From: Eubacteriaceae bacterium
Lineage (GTDB): Bacteria > Bacillota > Clostridia > Eubacteriales > Anaerofustaceae
Assembly (NCBI GenBank): GCA_017551505.1
Contig: JAFZLL010000040.1
Location: 1-32,474, forward strand
Length of the DNA stretch: 32,474 nt
Reading direction: 5' to 3'
The notes below the pieces were generated by a model. That model made no database searches, was not told the origin of the DNA, and saw nothing but the letters and a program-made list of their open reading frames with translations. Both the position numbers and the translations under genes were made by a program. This document shows positions 3,597-23,061 of the stretch, in pieces (the stretch's first letter is position 1; each line of letters opens with the position of its first letter).

Positions 3597-4618
3597 AGAC
3601 AGAAGACTTTGATTATTATATGCCCAAGGAGCTCATCGCCCAGCACGCCTTTGAACAGAGGGACCAGGCGCGCATGCTGGTAGTCAACAGGGCAGACGGT
3701 ACTTTCACCGACAGGCATTTTTATGAGATCATAGATTATATGTCTGCCGGGGATATCGTTGTACTCAATAATTCGAAGGTCATCCCGGCGAGGATATACG
3801 GGACGAAAAGGGAGACCGGAGCGCATATCGAATTCCTGCTGCACAAAAGATTCTCGGAGCATGACTGGGAAGTAATGGCCAGACCCGGCAAGAGGCTGAA
3901 GATCGGTACGGCCATCGATTTCCCCGGGGGGCTTTCCGCTGTCGTCAAGGCAAAAAAGGAAGACGGGCTTATCGACGTGACCTTTGAATACCAGGGCGAT
4001 TTCTTTGCGATACTCCATGATATAGGACAGATGCCTCTGCCTCCGTACATCAAGGAGAAGCTTAAGGATAAGGACTCCTACAATACCGTATATGCCAGCG
4101 TAGACGGTTCCAGCGCCGCCCCGACCGCAGGGCTGCATTTCACCGAGGAACTCCTCGAAAGGATCGAAGACAAAGGCATAAAGCTGGTCTGTGTCACGCT
4201 GCATGTCGGGCTTGGCACCTTCCTGCCTGTCAGCGATGAGAATATCGAAGAGCATATCATGCATACCGAGTATTACGAGATCAGCAAGGAAGCTGCCAGG
4301 ATTATAAATGAGACCAAGGACAACGGGGGAAGAGTATTCTGCATCGGGACGACGACGGTCCGCACCCTCGAGGCGAGCGCATCGAACAACGGGGGAAGGG
4401 TCGCTCCGGAATGCAGAGAAACGAATCTGTTCATATATCCCGGATTCGAATACAAGGTCGTTGACTGTCTGCTGACCAACTTTCACTTGCCAAAGTCGAC
4501 CCTGCTGATGCTGGTATGCGCTTTTTATAACAGGGAGAAGATACTGGAAGCATACAATTATGCCGTCAGGGAGAAGTACAGGTTCTATTCTTTTGGAGAC
4601 GCGATGCTGATAATATAA
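3593..4618 (+). CDS. queA: S-adenosylmethionine:tRNA ribosyltransferase-isomerase QueA
   Basis: A 341-residue enzyme that transfers and isomerises the ribosyl group of S-adenosylmethionine onto preQ1 in tRNA position 34 to give epoxyqueuosine. Family signatures are present from end to end: [17 protein letters not shown] at the start, [14 protein letters not shown] (about 55-68), [13 protein letters not shown] (about 176-188), [10 protein letters not shown] (about 201-210) and the C-terminal [15 protein letters not shown]. It is the last gene of the yigZ-ruvAB-queA operon, and the next pathway enzyme, QueG, is encoded 5 kb downstream in this window. Confidence 0.97.
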
Positions 4619-4631
4619 GCAGCACTTTTTT
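4605..4631 (+). terminator. Weak candidate terminator at the end of queA
   Basis: TGCTG (4605-4609) and CAGCA (4620-4624) can form a 5-bp stem with a 10-base loop, followed by a run of six T (4626-4631). The stem overlaps the queA stop codon and is short, so this is tentative. Confidence 0.25.
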
Positions 4632-5111
4632 AATACCTGTATTACGAATAGTTTATATAAGCCGTTTATTGCACATATACGTTACTGGATCCGATATTTC
4701 CTTTTGGAGAAGATTGTGGAAACCTTCTTGCTGGGGACAGTTATAGCTGAAGGAAATTGGATCGATTGTACTGAAGAACGCAATGGACTCCAGAATCGAT
4801 TTGATGATTTTGAAGAGAAATATCCCTGAGCAATGATTCAACTCTTAGCAAAAATAACAACGGACGATCTCGAAAGATATGAAACCGAAAAAACAAGCGA
4901 GCCGATGAGCATTACAGTTTATCGGCTTTTGGTTATTCAAATGCACAAAACGGAAAAGCATGCCAAAAAGTGCAGTCTTGGGTAAAGCGGATACATCAGA
5001 TTTGAAGCAGTTTGAGGCAGAAGCCGAAAGTATTATACAGATATATGATACACTTGTAATGTCATAGGAGGCAAATCGGCTTTTAGCAGACAGAATGTTC
5101 ATTCTATATAC
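4632..5111. other. Long intergenic stretch, possible remains of a gene
   Basis: About 480 bases without a convincing gene. On the plus strand one frame is open for roughly 70 codons up to TGA at 4827-4829, then in the same frame ATG 4833 opens another 50 codons (MIQLLAKITTDDLE...) to TAA 4983-4985. A second frame continues with protein-like sequence (LGKADTSDLKQFEAEAES...) to TAG 5065-5067. One stop plus one frame change over about 150 codons would fit a decayed gene, but no family is recognised and chance is not excluded. An orphan AGGAGG at 5067-5072 has no start codon at a suitable distance. Confidence 0.25.
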
Positions 5112-5123
5112 AGGAGGATACAA

Positions 5124-6320
5124 ATGAAAAGACCACTTTCGATCAAATCTCAGAGCATAGTTCCTTCAGCCACGCTCGCTCTTTCAGCTCTTACAAAGGA
5201 GCTTCAGGCTAATGGCGAAGATATTATCTCCTTCGGAATCGGCGAACCCGATTTCAACGTGGATCAGGTCATAAAGCAGGCTGCTATTGATGCGATCAGC
5301 AGCGATTTTTCGCATTATACGGAGGTCAAAGGCATCTATGAACTGAGAGAGGCTATTGCAGAAAGACTGCTCAGTGAAAATGGCCTCAAGTATTCCCCTG
5401 ACGACATCATCGCGACTTCCGGCGCAAAGCACGCCTTGTTTACAGCCTTGCAGACGCTCGTTTCCGAAGGCGACGAGGTGATCGTGCCACTGCCTTATTG
5501 GGTCAGCTACTCGGAAATGATCAAACTCGCCGGAGGGGTCCCAGTCCTGGCAAAGACCGATTTTGCAAACAGTTTTCTGCCGGATGCGGACATCATCAGA
5601 GAACTCATCAACGATAAGACCAAAGCAGTGATCATAAACGATCCTGTCAACCCGACAGGAGCCGTAATGGATAAAAAGAGGCTCAAAGGGATAGTCGAGG
5701 TCTGCGTCGAAAACGGAGTATATATCATTTCCGATGAAATCTATGACAAGTTCCTGTATGACGGCGCCAAGCATTATTCCGCAGCCGCATTCGGCAAAGA
5801 GGCAAGCGATATCACCATCACTGTCAACGGGTTCTCAAAGACATACGCGATGCCTGGGTGGAGATTGGGTTATGCGGCCTCCTCGAACAAGGATATCGTC
5901 AAGGCAATGAGCGGTATCTCGGGGCACTGCATCTCGCATCCTTCCAGCATAGTGCAGAAAGCCGGAGCAGCAGCCCTGAGAGCTGAACAGGGTTTTGTAT
6001 CCAAAATGGTCAAAGAGTATGACAGAAGGAGGCAGTATATGATGACACAGCTCAATAAAGCCGAGAACCTGAGATTCGTACTGCCCAAAGGAGCCTTCTA
6101 TATGTTCGTGGACATTTCCGCATATTCCGGCGACAGCAGTGATTTCGCCATGGATATGCTGAAGAACGGCAAAGTGGCCGTAGTGCCAGGCAGCGCTTTC
6201 GGACTCGAAGGCTTCATCAGGCTCTCCTATGCCTGCAGCTTTGATGACATCGTGAAAGGAATGAACAGATTCACATCATATCTGTCAAATATGCATGAAC
6301 AAACGAATCCTGATTATTGA
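5124..6320 (+). CDS. Pyridoxal-phosphate aminotransferase, probably aspartate aminotransferase
   Basis: A 398-residue class I/II (fold type I) aminotransferase, closest by motif to the bacterial I-gamma/AspB-type aspartate aminotransferases, interconverting aspartate and oxaloacetate with 2-oxoglutarate/glutamate. Seen: SFGIGEPDF (36-44), FSHYTEVKG, ATSGAKHAL, the VNPTG loop (176-180), ISDEIYDKF (202-210), PLP lysine K239 in NGFSKTYAMPGWRLGY and the substrate-carboxylate arginine in FIRLSYA. The usual N-S-P before NPTG reads N-D-P. A perfect AGGAGG at 5112-5117, six bases before ATG, fixes the start. polA begins 26 bases inside this gene. Exact substrate (aspartate, prephenate or other) cannot be read from sequence. 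Confidence 0.88.
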   Translation: MKRPLSIKSQSIVPSATLALSALTKELQANGEDIISFGIGEPDFNVDQVIKQAAIDAISSDFSHYTEVKGIYELREAIAERLLSENGLKYSPDDIIATSGAKHALFTALQTLVSEGDEVIVPLPYWVSYSEMIKLAGGVPVLAKTDFANSFLPDADIIRELINDKTKAVIINDPVNPTGAVMDKKRLKGIVEVCVENGVYIISDEIYDKFLYDGAKHYSAAAFGKEASDITITVNGFSKTYAMPGWRLGYAASSNKDIVKAMSGISGHCISHPSSIVQKAGAAALRAEQGFVSKMVKEYDRRRQYMMTQLNKAENLRFVLPKGAFYMFVDISAYSGDSSDFAMDMLKNGKVAVVPGSAFGLEGFIRLSYACSFDDIVKGMNRFTSYLSNMHEQTNPDY

Positions 6321-17540: not shown

Positions 17541-19928
17541 ATGATAACCTCAATTACATGGGTCAAAGATTATACTGAAATTCCCGATGATATGAAGTCC
17601 TTCGCAGAGAGGATGACGATCACCGGCACTATATGCGAGAATTACGAATACAGGGGAGGCCTGATCAGCAATATCGTCACCGCCAAAGTGAACAGCATCG
17701 AGAGCCACCCCGACTCCGACCACTTATGGGTATGCAAAGTCTTCGACGGCGAGAAAGAATATACTATCGTCACCGGGGCCCAGAATGTCAGACAGGGCGA
17801 CATCGTCCCGCTCGCCAGAAACGATTCCACATTACACGACGGGCGTGAGATCAAGACCGGGGTCTTAAGAGGCATCGAAAGCCAGGGGATGCTGTGCTCC
17901 GCCGGTGAGCTCGGCATCAAGGCAGGGATCGCTCCAAAAGCAGCAGAAGAAGGCATCTACATACTGCCCGAGGACACTAAGCTCGGAGTCGATATAAAAG
18001 AAGTACTTGGGCTTGATGACTATACTACCGAATTTGAACTGACCAACAACAGGCAGGACTGCAACAGCGTTCTGGGCATTGCCAGTGAAGTCGGAGCCGC
18101 ATTCGGAAAGAGATTTGTCTTCCCTGCATATGAGTTCGATTCTTCGAAGAACGATATCGATAATTACCTTACGGTCAGTGTTGAGAACCAGAACCTCTGC
18201 AGAAGATACACAGCGAGGATGGTCAGAATAAAGAAGATCGAACCGTCTCCCATGTGGATGCAGGTCAGACTTATGGGCTCGGGTATGAGGCCTATCAATA
18301 ACGTCGTTGATGTCTCTAACTTCGTCATGATGGAGACCGGACAGCCGCTGCATACCTTCGATTTCGACAAACTGGCAGACGGAAAGATAGTCGTCCGTAC
18401 CGCCGCAAAGGATGAAAAGTTCATTACCCTGGACGGCGTTGAAAGAGTGCTTGACGAGGATATGCTCATGATCTGCGACGGGCAGAGAAGCGTTTGCGTC
18501 GCAGGTGTGATGGGGGGAGAAAACTCCGACATTACGGATGACACAAAAGTCGTAGTCATAGAAGCCGCGAACTTCAACGGCACCAGCGTCAGGAACACAT
18601 CGAAGAAACTCGGACTGCGCACGGAATCCAGCGCGCGTTTTGAAAAGGGCATAAGCCCGTTCCTGACGAAATACGCCTGTGACAGGGCTGCCAGCCTGCT
18701 CGTGGAGATCGGCGCAGCTGAATACATAGACGGTGTGATCGATGTAAAGGGAGAGATAGCCGAACCCAGTGAAGTATCCATGGACATGGATTGGTACAAC
18801 TCCTTCATCGGAATAGACCTTACCCCTCAAAGGGCGGCCGGATACCTCGATCTTCTGGGATTCGACACTGTGATCGACGGTTCGGTGATAACCGCCAAAA
18901 CTCCCAGATTCCGTCAGGACATCGCAATAAAGGAAGATCTTGCGGAAGAAGTCACCCGCATGTTCGGTTATGACAATATACCGCAGACGAGGATGGAAAC
19001 GTCGAATTATATCTCGCCGAGGAACGAATACTACTCGTTCAAGCAGAAACTCAAACAGCTGCTTATCGGTATCGGCGGACATGATATACTGACTTATTCG
19101 TTCGACAGCCCGTCCAGGATCAAGGCTTTCGGATTTGACCAAGACGATAAGCGCAGCCAGCCCGAGGTCATCGTAAACCCGCTCGGAGAGGATACTTCCG
19201 CGATGCGCACGACGATCCTCACGGGGCTGCTGTCCACGCTCAAGCTCAACTCCAGCAAGAAAAACGAAGCTAGACTGATGTTCGAGATCGCATGCGCATT
19301 CCTGAAGAACGAGGATAAGAACGATCTTCCCGAAAGCATCGACAGACTTGCCGTAGGCAAATATGATTCTGATTTCTATGAGATCAAGTCAGTTATCGAG
19401 TATATCGCAGACGTGCTTAAGATCTCAGGACTTGATTACGAAAGAGCAAAAGAGCCTTTCCTCCATCCGGGAAGAAGCGCGTATGTTCTTCTGAACGGGA
19501 ATAGGATAGGCTGCTTCGGACAGATACACCCGGGGCTTGCCAAATACTATGAGGCGCCGGAAAGCGTATGCATTGCGGAGATCGATGTTGAGCCTTTGTA
19601 TGAAGCCTATAATGGTCATACTGTGCACATGAGACCTGTGGCAAAGTATCCCGCAGTACACAGGGATCTGGCGCTGGTAATGGATGAGGATACTCCGGCA
19701 GGAGATATCGGCAAAGAGATCTTATCAAGCGGGGGAGACAACCTGATCTCCTGTGACGTATTTGACGTCTATGTCAGCGATGTGATAGGTAAGAACAAGA
19801 AGAGCGTTGCGTATAACCTGGTCTTCCGCAGCGAAGAATCAACTCTTACCGATGAAATGATCGAAGAAGCTGTGAATAACATACTGACACATCTGAAAGA
19901 TAAATACGGCATCACGATCAGGGAATAA
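17541..19928 (+). CDS. pheT: Phenylalanine-tRNA ligase beta subunit
   Basis: A 795-residue beta subunit. Domains in order: an EMAP-type tRNA-binding domain (about 40-150; VNSIESHPDSDHLWVCKV, VTGAQNVRQGD), B3/B4 editing domain (about 210-370; MRPINNVVDVSNFVMMETGQP, and FNGTSVRNTSKKLGLRTESSARFEKG in pieces), B5 DNA-binding-like domain (about 400-475; ITAKTPRFRQDIAIKEDLAEEV), a catalytic-like core and the C-terminal ferredoxin-like anticodon-binding domain (about 700-795; MRPVAKYPAVHRDLALVMD). GGAGG precedes the ATG. Length is typical of the long bacterial form. A near-perfect hairpin terminator follows at 19941. Confidence 0.96.
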   Translation: MITSITWVKDYTEIPDDMKSFAERMTITGTICENYEYRGGLISNIVTAKVNSIESHPDSDHLWVCKVFDGEKEYTIVTGAQNVRQGDIVPLARNDSTLHDGREIKTGVLRGIESQGMLCSAGELGIKAGIAPKAAEEGIYILPEDTKLGVDIKEVLGLDDYTTEFELTNNRQDCNSVLGIASEVGAAFGKRFVFPAYEFDSSKNDIDNYLTVSVENQNLCRRYTARMVRIKKIEPSPMWMQVRLMGSGMRPINNVVDVSNFVMMETGQPLHTFDFDKLADGKIVVRTAAKDEKFITLDGVERVLDEDMLMICDGQRSVCVAGVMGGENSDITDDTKVVVIEAANFNGTSVRNTSKKLGLRTESSARFEKGISPFLTKYACDRAASLLVEIGAAEYIDGVIDVKGEIAEPSEVSMDMDWYNSFIGIDLTPQRAAGYLDLLGFDTVIDGSVITAKTPRFRQDIAIKEDLAEEVTRMFGYDNIPQTRMETSNYISPRNEYYSFKQKLKQLLIGIGGHDILTYSFDSPSRIKAFGFDQDDKRSQPEVIVNPLGEDTSAMRTTILTGLLSTLKLNSSKKNEARLMFEIACAFLKNEDKNDLPESIDRLAVGKYDSDFYEIKSVIEYIADVLKISGLDYERAKEPFLHPGRSAYVLLNGNRIGCFGQIHPGLAKYYEAPESVCIAEIDVEPLYEAYNGHTVHMRPVAKYPAVHRDLALVMDEDTPAGDIGKEILSSGGDNLISCDVFDVYVSDVIGKNKKSVAYNLVFRSEESTLTDEMIEEAVNNILTHLKDKYGITIRE

Positions 19929-19940
19929 GAATAGTTTTAC

Positions 19941-19977
19941 AAAAGATGCACTAAATATATATTTAGTGCATCTTTTT
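19941..19977 (+). terminator. Terminator after pheT
   Basis: GATGCACTAAAT (19945-19956) and ATTTAGTGCATC (19961-19972) form a perfect 12-bp stem around ATAT, with AAAA before and TTTTT after, so it could work in both directions. Confidence 0.9.
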
Positions 19978-19996: not shown

Positions 19997-20863
19997 ATGG
20001 AAAAATCATATTCTGAATATCTGAAAAAGGAATATCCGTCCGATACGGCCAAAGGATACTTGTACGATGTCCGGGGATTCGAGCGATTCCTGAGACAGCG
20101 CTATGATGACGAAAACAGCGTTCTTGAAAATGCCGCCGCTGCCGATGTGATAGCGTATATGAACTGGCTGAGCGCATCAAATAATTCCGAAGCCATGATC
20201 AACAGGATGCTTTCATCACTGAGGAACTATTATGACTATCTGCAGGATCTGGGGGTAATAAATAATTCTCCCGTTAAGAATGTGAAGTCATTGAAAGTCA
20301 GTACTGAAAATAAACAGCCTCTGCTCATTGACGAATGCAGAAAGCTGCTTGAAAGCATAGATGGAAGGAATTCTCTGAGAGATCAGCTTATAATCCTGAT
20401 GAATATCAACTGCTGCCTCACTGCTTCGGAGCTGGCATCCATCAGAACGGCAGATATCACTGATGAGTGCCTCATCATACGCGATAATGACAAAAATGAG
20501 AGAATGATCCCTTTGGATGACGCTCTGAAATCGATTTTAAGGCGTTTTTTATCGGACGAACGTATACGAACACGTAAATTCCTTTTCAGCGGGAATGACG
20601 AACCGATGCCTCTGAGGACCATCCAGCTTATAGTTACAAACCGGCTGAAAAAAAGCGGTATCTACAGGAAGGGGATGTCTACAGTCACTCTGAAACTTAC
20701 CGGAGCATATATCCTGAAAAAATACTGTTCGGTCGGCAATGAAACTCTCAGTACAGTCTACGGTATAAACAAACCCGAAAACATCATAGTCAGCAGAGAT
20801 GAATTTCCGGTCGGGGAAAATATCAATAAAAATCCTCTTGTAAAACTGGCGGGGCAGGAGTAA
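19997..20863 (+). CDS. Tyrosine recombinase-like protein lacking all catalytic residues
   Basis: A 288-residue protein with the layout of XerC/XerD: an N-terminal SAM-like core-binding domain (about 1-100, with MINRMLSSLRNYYDYLQDLG) and a C-terminal catalytic-fold domain (about 105-270). It aligns along its length with Xer proteins, but each catalytic position is changed. The arginine of the family's TGLRVSEL is T142 in CLTASEL; the beta-hairpin lysine of GKGNKER reads DNDKNER; the HxxR pair falls on L232 and T235 in TLKLTGAY; the LGH histidine is N248 in VGNETLST; the nucleophile tyrosine falls on I257, with Y255 two residues off. The frame has no lesion, suggesting a kept structural role. 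It precedes an active-looking recombinase by 59 bases. Confidence 0.75.
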   Translation: MEKSYSEYLKKEYPSDTAKGYLYDVRGFERFLRQRYDDENSVLENAAAADVIAYMNWLSASNNSEAMINRMLSSLRNYYDYLQDLGVINNSPVKNVKSLKVSTENKQPLLIDECRKLLESIDGRNSLRDQLIILMNINCCLTASELASIRTADITDECLIIRDNDKNERMIPLDDALKSILRRFLSDERIRTRKFLFSGNDEPMPLRTIQLIVTNRLKKSGIYRKGMSTVTLKLTGAYILKKYCSVGNETLSTVYGINKPENIIVSRDEFPVGENINKNPLVKLAGQE

Positions 20864-20922
20864 AATAACTACAGATATCTTTCCGTTAAAGACAGCTTTA
20901 ATGTAAATATGGAGTAGAATTT

Positions 20923-21999
20923 ATGCCAAACAACTACACTAAGGAAAAAAACGCAGAATACACTGTCAAATTAAGAAATATGCTGGAATTGCTGCCCGCG
21001 TTCGCGTCGGACTTTTTCCGCGGAATCACTGATACGACTCAGATCCGGACAAGGCTTGCTTATTCATACGATCTGCGTATCTTCTTTTATTATCTGAAAA
21101 ATGTAAATGATAAATTCCATGATAGAAAAGATGAGAGGGATTTTACCGTTAAAGATCTGGATCTGATCAAAGCTGTAGATTTAGAAAAATACTCTGAATT
21201 CCTCTCCTATTATCAATTGCCGAATTATAAGGACCCGTCGAAGATGATGACCTATACAAATTCAGCAAACGGAAAGATGCGAAAGCTTGCTACGCTGCGC
21301 AGCTTCTATAAATACTATTTTAAACGCGAACTGATCCAGACAAACCCTGCGGAACTGGTCGATCTCCCGAAAATCCACGAAAAGCCTATCGTCCGGCTGG
21401 AAGTTAATGAAGTAGCCGATCTGCTTGACGGCGTGGAAGACGGTAATAGATTATCAGAAACTGCAAAGAGATTCCATGAGAAAACCGCTCTCAGGGATAC
21501 AGCGCTGATAGCGTTGATGCTCGGAACAGGGATCCGTATCAGCGAGTGTATTGGGCTTAATATATCGGATTTCGATTTCTCGAACAACAGTTTTATCGTC
21601 ACGCGAAAAGGCGGCGATAAAGCCATACTCTATCTATCCCAGGAAGTTGCAGATATACTTACAAATTACCTTAAAGAATATCGAAATAAGATAGAAGGAA
21701 TCAGGCCGGGCGACGAAGATGCTATGTTCCTTTCTCTCCAAAAGAAACGCATGGGTGTCAGCGCCGTTGAAAAAATGGTTAAAAAGTATACGAGAAGCAT
21801 TGTGCCGTTGAAAAACATCTCTCCGCATAAATTCAGGAGCACGTTTGGTACAAATCTGTATCTCGAGACGGGAGATATCTACCTTGTGGCGGATGTGTTA
21901 GGCCATAAAGATGTCAATACCACCAGAAAACATTACGCGGATGTAGAAGAAGACAGGCGTAAGCAGGCAGCTAAAGTGATAAAGCTGAGAAAAGATTAA
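20923..21999 (+). CDS. XerC/XerD-type tyrosine recombinase
   Basis: A 358-residue tyrosine recombinase with an intact active site: R205 in GTGIRISEC, lysine K229 or K233 in TRKGGDKAIL, H302 and R305 in SPHKFRSTFG, H328 in LGHKDVNTT and nucleophile Y338 in KHYADV. The N-terminal core-binding domain (about 1-150) is longer than in XerC/D, with MRKLATLRSFYKYYFKRE. GGAG stands 8 bases before ATG. Such genes next to lexA occur in clostridia and probably act at dif-like sites or in DNA rearrangement; which role applies here cannot be told. Its stop overlaps the convergent LysM gene by 4 bases and no phage genes surround it. Confidence 0.88.
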   Translation: MPNNYTKEKNAEYTVKLRNMLELLPAFASDFFRGITDTTQIRTRLAYSYDLRIFFYYLKNVNDKFHDRKDERDFTVKDLDLIKAVDLEKYSEFLSYYQLPNYKDPSKMMTYTNSANGKMRKLATLRSFYKYYFKRELIQTNPAELVDLPKIHEKPIVRLEVNEVADLLDGVEDGNRLSETAKRFHEKTALRDTALIALMLGTGIRISECIGLNISDFDFSNNSFIVTRKGGDKAILYLSQEVADILTNYLKEYRNKIEGIRPGDEDAMFLSLQKKRMGVSAVEKMVKKYTRSIVPLKNISPHKFRSTFGTNLYLETGDIYLVADVLGHKDVNTTRKHYADVEEDRRKQAAKVIKLRKD

Positions 22000-22304
22000 T
22001 AGACAGGCAACTCTATCGTCTGTCCGGTGTAAATGAGTCCACCCTTTTGCAGTCCGTTTATCTGGCATATCTCGAATACGACTTGAGGAAGTCTCATGTC
22101 ACTTGGACATATTGCTTCAGCTAAAGCCCATACAGTATCGCCATCGCGAACTACATAAGGCATGGTCCGTGTTAACGTAGATCCGTTGGCTCCAGTAAAT
22201 GGGATAAAGAAAGCAAAGAATATAACAAGCACAACGAATGCTATAAAGAGTTTCTTATATATTGCTACTGCAGATTTCTTGAGGTGTATCGAACGTTTTT
22301 TCAT
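21996..22304 (-). CDS. YneA-like LysM protein, probable SOS cell-division inhibitor
   Basis: A 102-residue protein with a basic N-terminus, one membrane segment (about 18-37, KLFIAFVVLVIFFAFFIPF) and a C-terminal LysM domain (about 48-102: YVVRDGDTVWALAEAICP, then YTGQTIELPVY). It matches the size and plan of YneA, which delays division during the SOS response in Bacillus. Position supports this: it diverges from lexA, has a good promoter (TTGACA-17-TACACT) and a LexA box over its transcript start. GGGAG lies five bases before the ATG. Sequence identity to YneA outside LysM is not evident, so the symbol is withheld. Confidence 0.82.
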   Translation of the reverse strand: MKKRSIHLKKSAVAIYKKLFIAFVVLVIFFAFFIPFTGANGSTLTRTMPYVVRDGDTVWALAEAICPSDMRLPQVVFEICQINGLQKGGLIYTGQTIELPVY

Positions 22305-22318
22305 ATTAACTCCCTAAT

Positions 22319-22332
22319 CGAACATTTGTTTA
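22319..22332. promoter_or_regulatory. LexA (SOS) box
   Basis: CGAACATTTGTTTA matches the Bacillota box CGAAC-N4-GTTCG/GTTYG except near its end. It covers the predicted transcript start (about 22331) of the LysM gene. Confidence 0.75.
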
Positions 22333-22337
22333 GCACA

Positions 22338-22366
22338 AGTGTACGATAAACCGATTAAATTGTCAA
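22338..22366 (-). promoter_or_regulatory. Promoter of the yneA-like gene
   Basis: Minus-strand TTGACA (22366-22361), exactly 17 bases, TACACT (22343-22338); start near 22331, inside the LexA box. Confidence 0.75.
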
Positions 22367-22373
22367 GATATTT

Positions 22374-22387
22374 AGAACAAATATTTG
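22374..22387. promoter_or_regulatory. Degenerate second LexA-like site at the lexA promoter
   Basis: AGAACAAATATTTG keeps the GAAC half but has ATTT for GTTY. It touches the -35 of lexA, a plausible place for autoregulation; weaker than the site at 22319. Confidence 0.35.
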
Positions 22388-22413
22388 ACAAGACATACTG
22401 CCATATGTATAAT
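22385..22413 (+). promoter_or_regulatory. Promoter of lexA
   Basis: TTGACA (22385-22390), exactly 17 bases, TATAAT (22408-22413): a full consensus sigma-A promoter. Start near 22420, ribosome-binding site AAGGTGG 7 bases before ATG 22444. Confidence 0.85.
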
Positions 22414-22443
22414 GTAATTGAAAATTAGTAAGGTGGTTTTCCC

Positions 22444-23061
22444 ATGTACGAAGATCTATCTGGTATTCAAATCGAAATTCTTGAGTATCTCAAGGACGAA
22501 ATGAAAAAGCACAGCTACTCACCCTCTGTTAGAGAGATAGGTGCAGCTGTTGGATTGAAATCAACATCTTCTGTCCAGTATCAACTGAACAATCTTGCAC
22601 AACTGGGCTATATCCGCCGCAATCCGCTTAAACCAAGAACCATCGAGATTATCGATGATGATGAACCTATTCCAGAGACAGAGATGATCTCTGTTCCTAT
22701 CGTAGGTAAGGTCGCTGCAGGTGCCCCGATCCTTGCCGTTGAGAATTATGAAGACTATTTCCCTCTGCCTGCTTCATTTTTGGGCCGTGGTGAAAGTGAA
22801 TGCTTCATGCTCATGGTACAAGGGAGCAGCATGATTAATGCCGGCATCTTTGACGGAGATTATGTGATCGTCCGTCAGCAGAATACCGCAAGAAATGGTG
22901 AAATAGTCGTTGCCATGATTGATGATGAGGCAACGGTCAAGACCTTCTACAAAGAAGAGAACAGCATCCGCCTGCAACCGGAGAATCCGATGATGGCTCC
23001 TATATATGCCAGAAATGTTACTATACTGGGGAAAGTTATCGGGGTAATCAGAAAACTATAA
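22444..23061 (+). CDS. lexA: SOS-response repressor LexA
   Basis: A 205-residue repressor that cleaves itself when RecA filaments form, releasing SOS genes. The N-terminal winged helix (about 1-65) has SPSVREIGAAVGLKSTSSVQYQL, given here as the recognition region around 26-48; the C-terminal peptidase domain has the cleavage site A92-G93 in KVAAGAP, catalytic S129 in VQGSSM and K166 in ATVKTF. All three functional elements are intact. It shares a regulatory region with the divergent LysM gene; CGAAC-type boxes there imply autoregulation. It is converged on by the ATPase gene after a terminator. Confidence 0.96.
   Translation: MYEDLSGIQIEILEYLKDEMKKHSYSPSVREIGAAVGLKSTSSVQYQLNNLAQLGYIRRNPLKPRTIEIIDDDEPIPETEMISVPIVGKVAAGAPILAVENYEDYFPLPASFLGRGESECFMLMVQGSSMINAGIFDGDYVIVRQQNTARNGEIVVAMIDDEATVKTFYKEENSIRLQPENPMMAPIYARNVTILGKVIGVIRKL

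Follow-up and report, generated by a model that had tools for sequence, protein, structure and literature searches.

The stretch of DNA analysed here (the window, 32,474 bp) lies on contig 36 of a 1.56-Mb draft genome, G000, and harbours two adjacent Xer-type genes, whose products are the only PF00589 proteins of that genome. We term these genes and their proteins A and B, the palindrome upstream of A the A-site, and the site of B difB; genomes, genera and families are labelled G, g and f, respectively, the family of the window being f1. The features of the locus are as follows.

17541 to 19928, + strand: pheT, an open reading frame located immediately before A in three f1 genera; the order pheS-pheT-A is also found in G007 and G011.
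19936 to 19963, + strand: promoter-like TTTACA-16-TATATT, overlapping the A-site.
19943 to 19974, no strand: A-site, a perfect 13-6-13 palindrome, AAGATGCACTAAA-TATATA-TTTAGTGCATCTT, the proposed operator and former recombination site of A.
19997 to 20863, + strand: A, a Xer-type protein of 288 aa predicted to be catalytically dead (open reading frame, domain matches, alignment, fold).
20878 to 20909, + strand: difB, a dif-like site, TCTTTCCGTTAAA-GACAGC-TTTAATGTAAATA, between A and B, with arms matching at 10/13 positions.
20923 to 21999, + strand: B, a predicted active XerS-like tyrosine recombinase of 358 aa (model scores, catalytic residues).
21996 to 22304, - strand: YneA-like LysM protein (open reading frame), found between B and lexA in relatives too.
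22444 to 23061, + strand: lexA, an open reading frame named from its sequence.

The promoter-like sequence is a weak candidate because such matches occur in the region at chance level. Next to B at the terminus are the yneA-like LysM gene and the SOS-response gene lexA (21996 to 23061), an arrangement common to many relatives. An earlier note on this DNA had suggested checking whether the dead copy recurs beside the active gene and lexA; lexA adjoins B in many relatives. The assembly of the sister species G001 (L031, L279) is interrupted from within pheT to the start of B, a gap that covers exactly the A gene.

We found that A is encoded by an intact open frame without stop or frameshift, and that it matches the Pfam families Phage_int_SAM_1 (5.6e-11) and Phage_integrase (1.2e-7), in agreement with the two-domain Xer layout that the earlier note had read from the sequence. 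A scores below the NCBIfam cut-offs for both XerC (91 versus 335.15 bits) and XerD (86.2 versus 329.6 bits). When A is aligned to intact orthologues, all six catalytic positions are changed: R1 to T142, K to N164, H1 to V230, R2 to K233, H2 to I257 and Tyr to I264, the placement of I257 and I264 resting on the alignment of a divergent tail. The earlier note was therefore right about T142 and about the total loss, and its later register (L232/T235, N248 and I257) was shifted. With no catalytic residue left, A is strongly expected to have lost recombinase activity.

An AF2 model of A built from four sequences (pLDDT 68, with residues 239-288 poor) matches XerA, XerD and XerH with a Foldseek probability of 1.00. 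The best structural matches are archaeal Xer proteins (4a8e, Z 19.2; 5hxy, Z 17.9), and the model also matches phage repressors, namely MrpR (8a0a, VIA Z 12.0) and an SroF-Sar entry (VIA Z 13.0). Single domains superpose at about 2 Å (2.1 Å over 134 residues for the catalytic domain against XerD 5dcf, and 2.1 Å over 94 residues for the N-terminal domain against 3nrw), and the whole-chain rmsd is large (12-16 Å), presumably because the domains are oriented differently. According to this model A is a protein of the two-domain, core-binding plus catalytic Xer/tyrosine-recombinase fold, and not one of the unrelated fold that the earlier note had wanted checked.

The best model for B is XerS (NF003462), with 159.5 bits, below the cut-off of 267. 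Its catalytic residues R205, K229, H302, R305, H328 and Y338 are all intact, as the earlier note had stated, and invariant in eight B orthologues. Judged from its sequence, B is an active XerS-like tyrosine recombinase, and it probably resolves chromosome dimers at the terminus. The 13-6-13 difB site is unique in its own genome, and most of the searched genomes that carry B have a counterpart close to that gene. In the single-contig genome G016 (f5), the orthologous difB site, at 115.4 kb, coincides with the peak of the cumulative GC skew (116-kb bin); the same is true of G009 (f1), with the site at 434.9 kb and the peak in the 434-436-kb bin. Uniqueness, together with orthologues located at the GC-skew peak, gives difB the properties of a dif site. 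The cumulative GC skew of the window itself peaks at about 23 kb.

The orientation of difB relative to the B gene is inverted in f5 (L033, L043, L045, L037) compared with f1 (the window, G007, G004), f2 and f4. We also observed that many Lachnospiraceae (L131-L205; for example Blautia luti, Enterocloster bolteae and Faecalicatena contorta) have an XerS-like B with a nearby 13-6-13 near-palindromic site, which may represent a widespread single-recombinase system below the XerS cut-off.

The A-site ends 22 bp before the start codon of A and is present as a single copy in its own genome at up to 3 mismatches. Furthermore, a near-perfect palindrome is found shortly upstream of nearly every A gene, dead or intact. 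Among dead A genes, 12/12 have an upstream palindrome matching at 11-13/13 positions, with at least 12/13 in 10/12 of them, versus 22/614 control genes. The 20-bp core CACTAAATATATATTTAGTG, searched at up to 3 mismatches in 2.9 Mb of DNA, matched nothing but the f1 A-sites and a position before tex in genus g3; the palindrome of G011 (f1) is more divergent (TGCACCG core) and falls outside this shared core, and the spacer of the f5 A-site is 8 bases, versus 6 in the window. In A-lacking genomes, no A-site was seen near B.

The copy before tex is a second A-type palindrome, located 24-30 bp before a 714-aa tex gene in 3/3 g3 genomes (L038:5852-5871, L041:14729-14748 and L042:8542-8561), each of which has exactly two A-type sites genome-wide. 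As a putative second target, tex was seen in g3 only. In the G009 copy before tex, both arms carry an identical change, which would be expected if a symmetric dimer binds there.

The palindrome lies directly 3′ of pheT in the window, G007 and G011. The A-site of the window scores as a terminator and could double as that of pheT, as could its counterparts in G011 or G007. As a general explanation, a terminator-only role of the A-site was rejected, because the 20-bp core spans different gene contexts and most A-sites are without a T run.

Next we consider how A and B relate to each other. The earlier note had suggested a structural partnership of the two proteins, which our results speak against: many genomes have B with its own near-palindromic site and without A, and intact A has its own palindrome and, in genomes that lack B, is itself the recombinase gene at the terminus. 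Specifically, in ten B-less f3 genomes the A-site occurs once per genome with the same spacer, TGTAAG, and in two complete f3 genomes without B the GC-skew peak coincides with the A locus. With its own palindrome and a terminus position without B, intact A therefore looks like a separate single-recombinase/dif module. On the sequence evidence, the partnership reading is mostly wrong, and A and B look like two separate single-recombinase modules lying side by side at the replication terminus.

The dead state of A goes beyond a chance occurrence, as dead A orthologues were found in 12 genomes from three families of the order: six in f1 (four genera), five in f5, which includes Alkalibacter mobilis and Alkalibaculum bacchi, and one in f4. 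K, H1 and H2 are missing in 12/12 of these proteins, R2 is kept in 11/12 and Tyr in six. Intact A orthologues occur in f2, where they adjoin an intact B, in f3 and in other Clostridia. Recent decay, which intact orthologues in relatives could have indicated, is ruled out: such orthologues do exist in f2 and f3, but the dead state is common to three families. In the tree the dead A rows form one group on long branches, and at this modest support (77/93) the pattern may reflect several independent losses of catalysis rather than a single origin of the dead clade. That the dead copy recurs beside the active gene holds in part, since it does recur near B, but the two are 5-11 kb apart in g3, and three f1 genera (g4, g5 and g2) carry B without detectable A. 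In G002 (L047:5505-7690), no A remnant was recognisable upstream of B and its site, where about 1.8 kb is without a long open frame, and no relic of A or of the A-site was recognised after pheT in A-lacking genomes. An Alkalibaculum bacchi MAG (G032; L049:5856-6800 and 4451-5257) has a truncated dead A together with a divergently oriented second A that has all catalytic residues and its own palindrome.

To what extent A is under selection was estimated by dN/dS (Nei-Gojobori with codon bootstrap), which for three pairs in g3, a genus other than that of the window, gave 0.06-0.14, 0.10-0.28 and 0.12-0.31. These values, well below 1, indicate that A is under purifying selection, albeit weaker than that on B; identity between genera is about 30% for A versus 57-73% for B. 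The slowest-changing part of A in g3 is the C-terminal tail. In G007, G027 and G032, A is truncated and the dead protein lacks this tail. Collectively, the dead state in 12 genomes, the low dN/dS and the Xer fold support the earlier proposal that A is kept for a non-catalytic job, probably a DNA-binding one.

The anatomy of the modules, the lost catalytic residues, the conserved sites and, in relatives, the location at the terminus were all observed. From these we propose, with a probability of roughly 0.58, that A is a resolvase that has been demoted, using the site at which it once recombined DNA as an operator to control its own gene. The ancestor of A would have been a one-protein Xer/dif system at the terminus, with its palindromic recombination site directly upstream of the gene. 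The XerS-like module of B and difB would then have replaced it as the resolver of chromosome dimers at that position; A would subsequently have lost its active site, and selection would have retained it as a protein that binds DNA sequence-specifically. We infer that dead A binds the old palindrome before its own gene, probably as a dimer, and that it exerts regulation from this operator, autorepression being the most likely mode; autoregulation is suggested because the A-site is promoter-proximal. In genus g3, A would probably control tex too. More tentatively, and at slightly less than even odds, we suggest that a chromosomal dimer resolvase, supplanted by a second Xer/dif module at the terminus, has been exapted as a regulator: its former dif would serve as operator, and the dead enzyme would link the expression of terminus genes (itself, and tex in one genus) to whether a site next to the working dif is occupied.

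The main rival to the regulator reading is an accessory role of A at difB, in which dead A would be an architectural factor of the reaction of B, bound at a palindrome about 1 kb from difB and aiding synapsis, topology or timing, much as PepA and ArgR act at accessory sites of plasmid Xer sites. The gene arrangement is compatible with such a role: wherever the A-site and difB could both be resolved in a dead-A genome, they flank the A gene and are about 0.9-1.4 kb apart, an order that holds even in g3, where B moved 5-11 kb away but difB stayed with A, and the difB orthologues are at the terminus. However, many genomes have B without A or an A-site, the second g3 site is placed as an operator before tex, and almost all A genes, among them the intact ones of B-less genomes, have the A-site in a promoter-proximal position; we therefore regard an accessory role as doubtful.

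Quite unlikely, in our view, is that dead A forms the non-catalytic half of a mixed complex with B, occupying one difB arm like XerC beside XerD. All genomes that carry A have unequal difB arms (8-10/13), whereas the arms match at 12-13/13 in the A-less f1 genomes G004, G005 and G010, and the slow evolution of the C-terminal tail in g3 would also fit a partner protein. Yet the arms are unequal in G002, G017, G023 and G030, which have no detectable A, and at some B-only Lachnospiraceae sites too; A has its own palindrome, and three dead A proteins (G007, G027, G032) lack the C-terminal tail. If unequal difB arms marked A binding, A should be found elsewhere in the genomes with asymmetric sites, which was not borne out, so that the arms hint only weakly at a partner role: profile searches found no A in G002, G023 and G030, and only a conventional XerD-like protein of about 300 aa in G017 and G085. 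It is very unlikely that A is simply a decaying relic made redundant by B. Its truncation in G007, G027 and G032, its absence from several relatives and its much faster evolution than that of B would be in line with decay, but its reading frame stays open across genera that share only about 30% identity in A, dN/dS in g3 is well below 1 and the palindromes are conserved.

Taken together, these results favour the regulator reading. Dead recombinases acting as DNA-binding regulators are so far known from phage proteins, and A is probably a chromosomal case. It offers a traceable passage from enzyme to DNA-binding regulator, as intact, dead, truncated and absent versions are found in related families and the site can be tracked alongside. 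The A/B locus furthermore suggests how one Xer/dif system may replace another at the terminus, and the idea of the MrpR authors that the recruitment of tyrosine recombinases as transcription factors is commoner than assumed would extend to a core chromosomal gene. It also carries a warning that similarity-based Xer annotation can name non-recombinases.

Among known systems, the XerC/XerD pair likewise has two Xer proteins with a dif-like 11-6-11 site between, but the sites of A and B are separate, each is found without the other, and A is predicted to be dead. The B/difB module resembles XerS/difSL of streptococci and lactococci in having a single recombinase of the 356-aa type linked to its site. 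The difSL site of streptococci has the left half TTTCCGAAAA and an 11-bp centre (PMC5357621); TTTCCGAAAA resembles TTTCCGTTAAA, whereas the centre of difB is 6 bp and B, at 159.5 bits, falls short of the XerS cut-off (267 bits). Archaeal XerA/dif provides the top structural matches of A, and intact A scores 215.5 versus 220 bits on the XerA model; A is, however, bacterial, below the curated cut-off and apparently dead in the lineage of the window. For the regulator reading the closest parallels are MrpR and phi3T SroF, which share the tyrosine-recombinase fold and are both structural matches of the A model, a likeness of fold and lost catalysis rather than of close sequence relation. MrpR (YopR), the master repressor of the SPbeta prophage, has this fold, shows no recombination activity and represses promoters; it keeps 3 of 7 catalytic residues and binds repeated promoter elements with a 15-bp motif across a phage regulon (PMC10516654). 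This precedent indicates that the change from recombinase to repressor does happen. In contrast to this phage protein and its short motif, A is a chromosomal Xer protein at the terminus, and its proposed operator is a 32-bp dif-like palindrome that would stem from its recombinase past.
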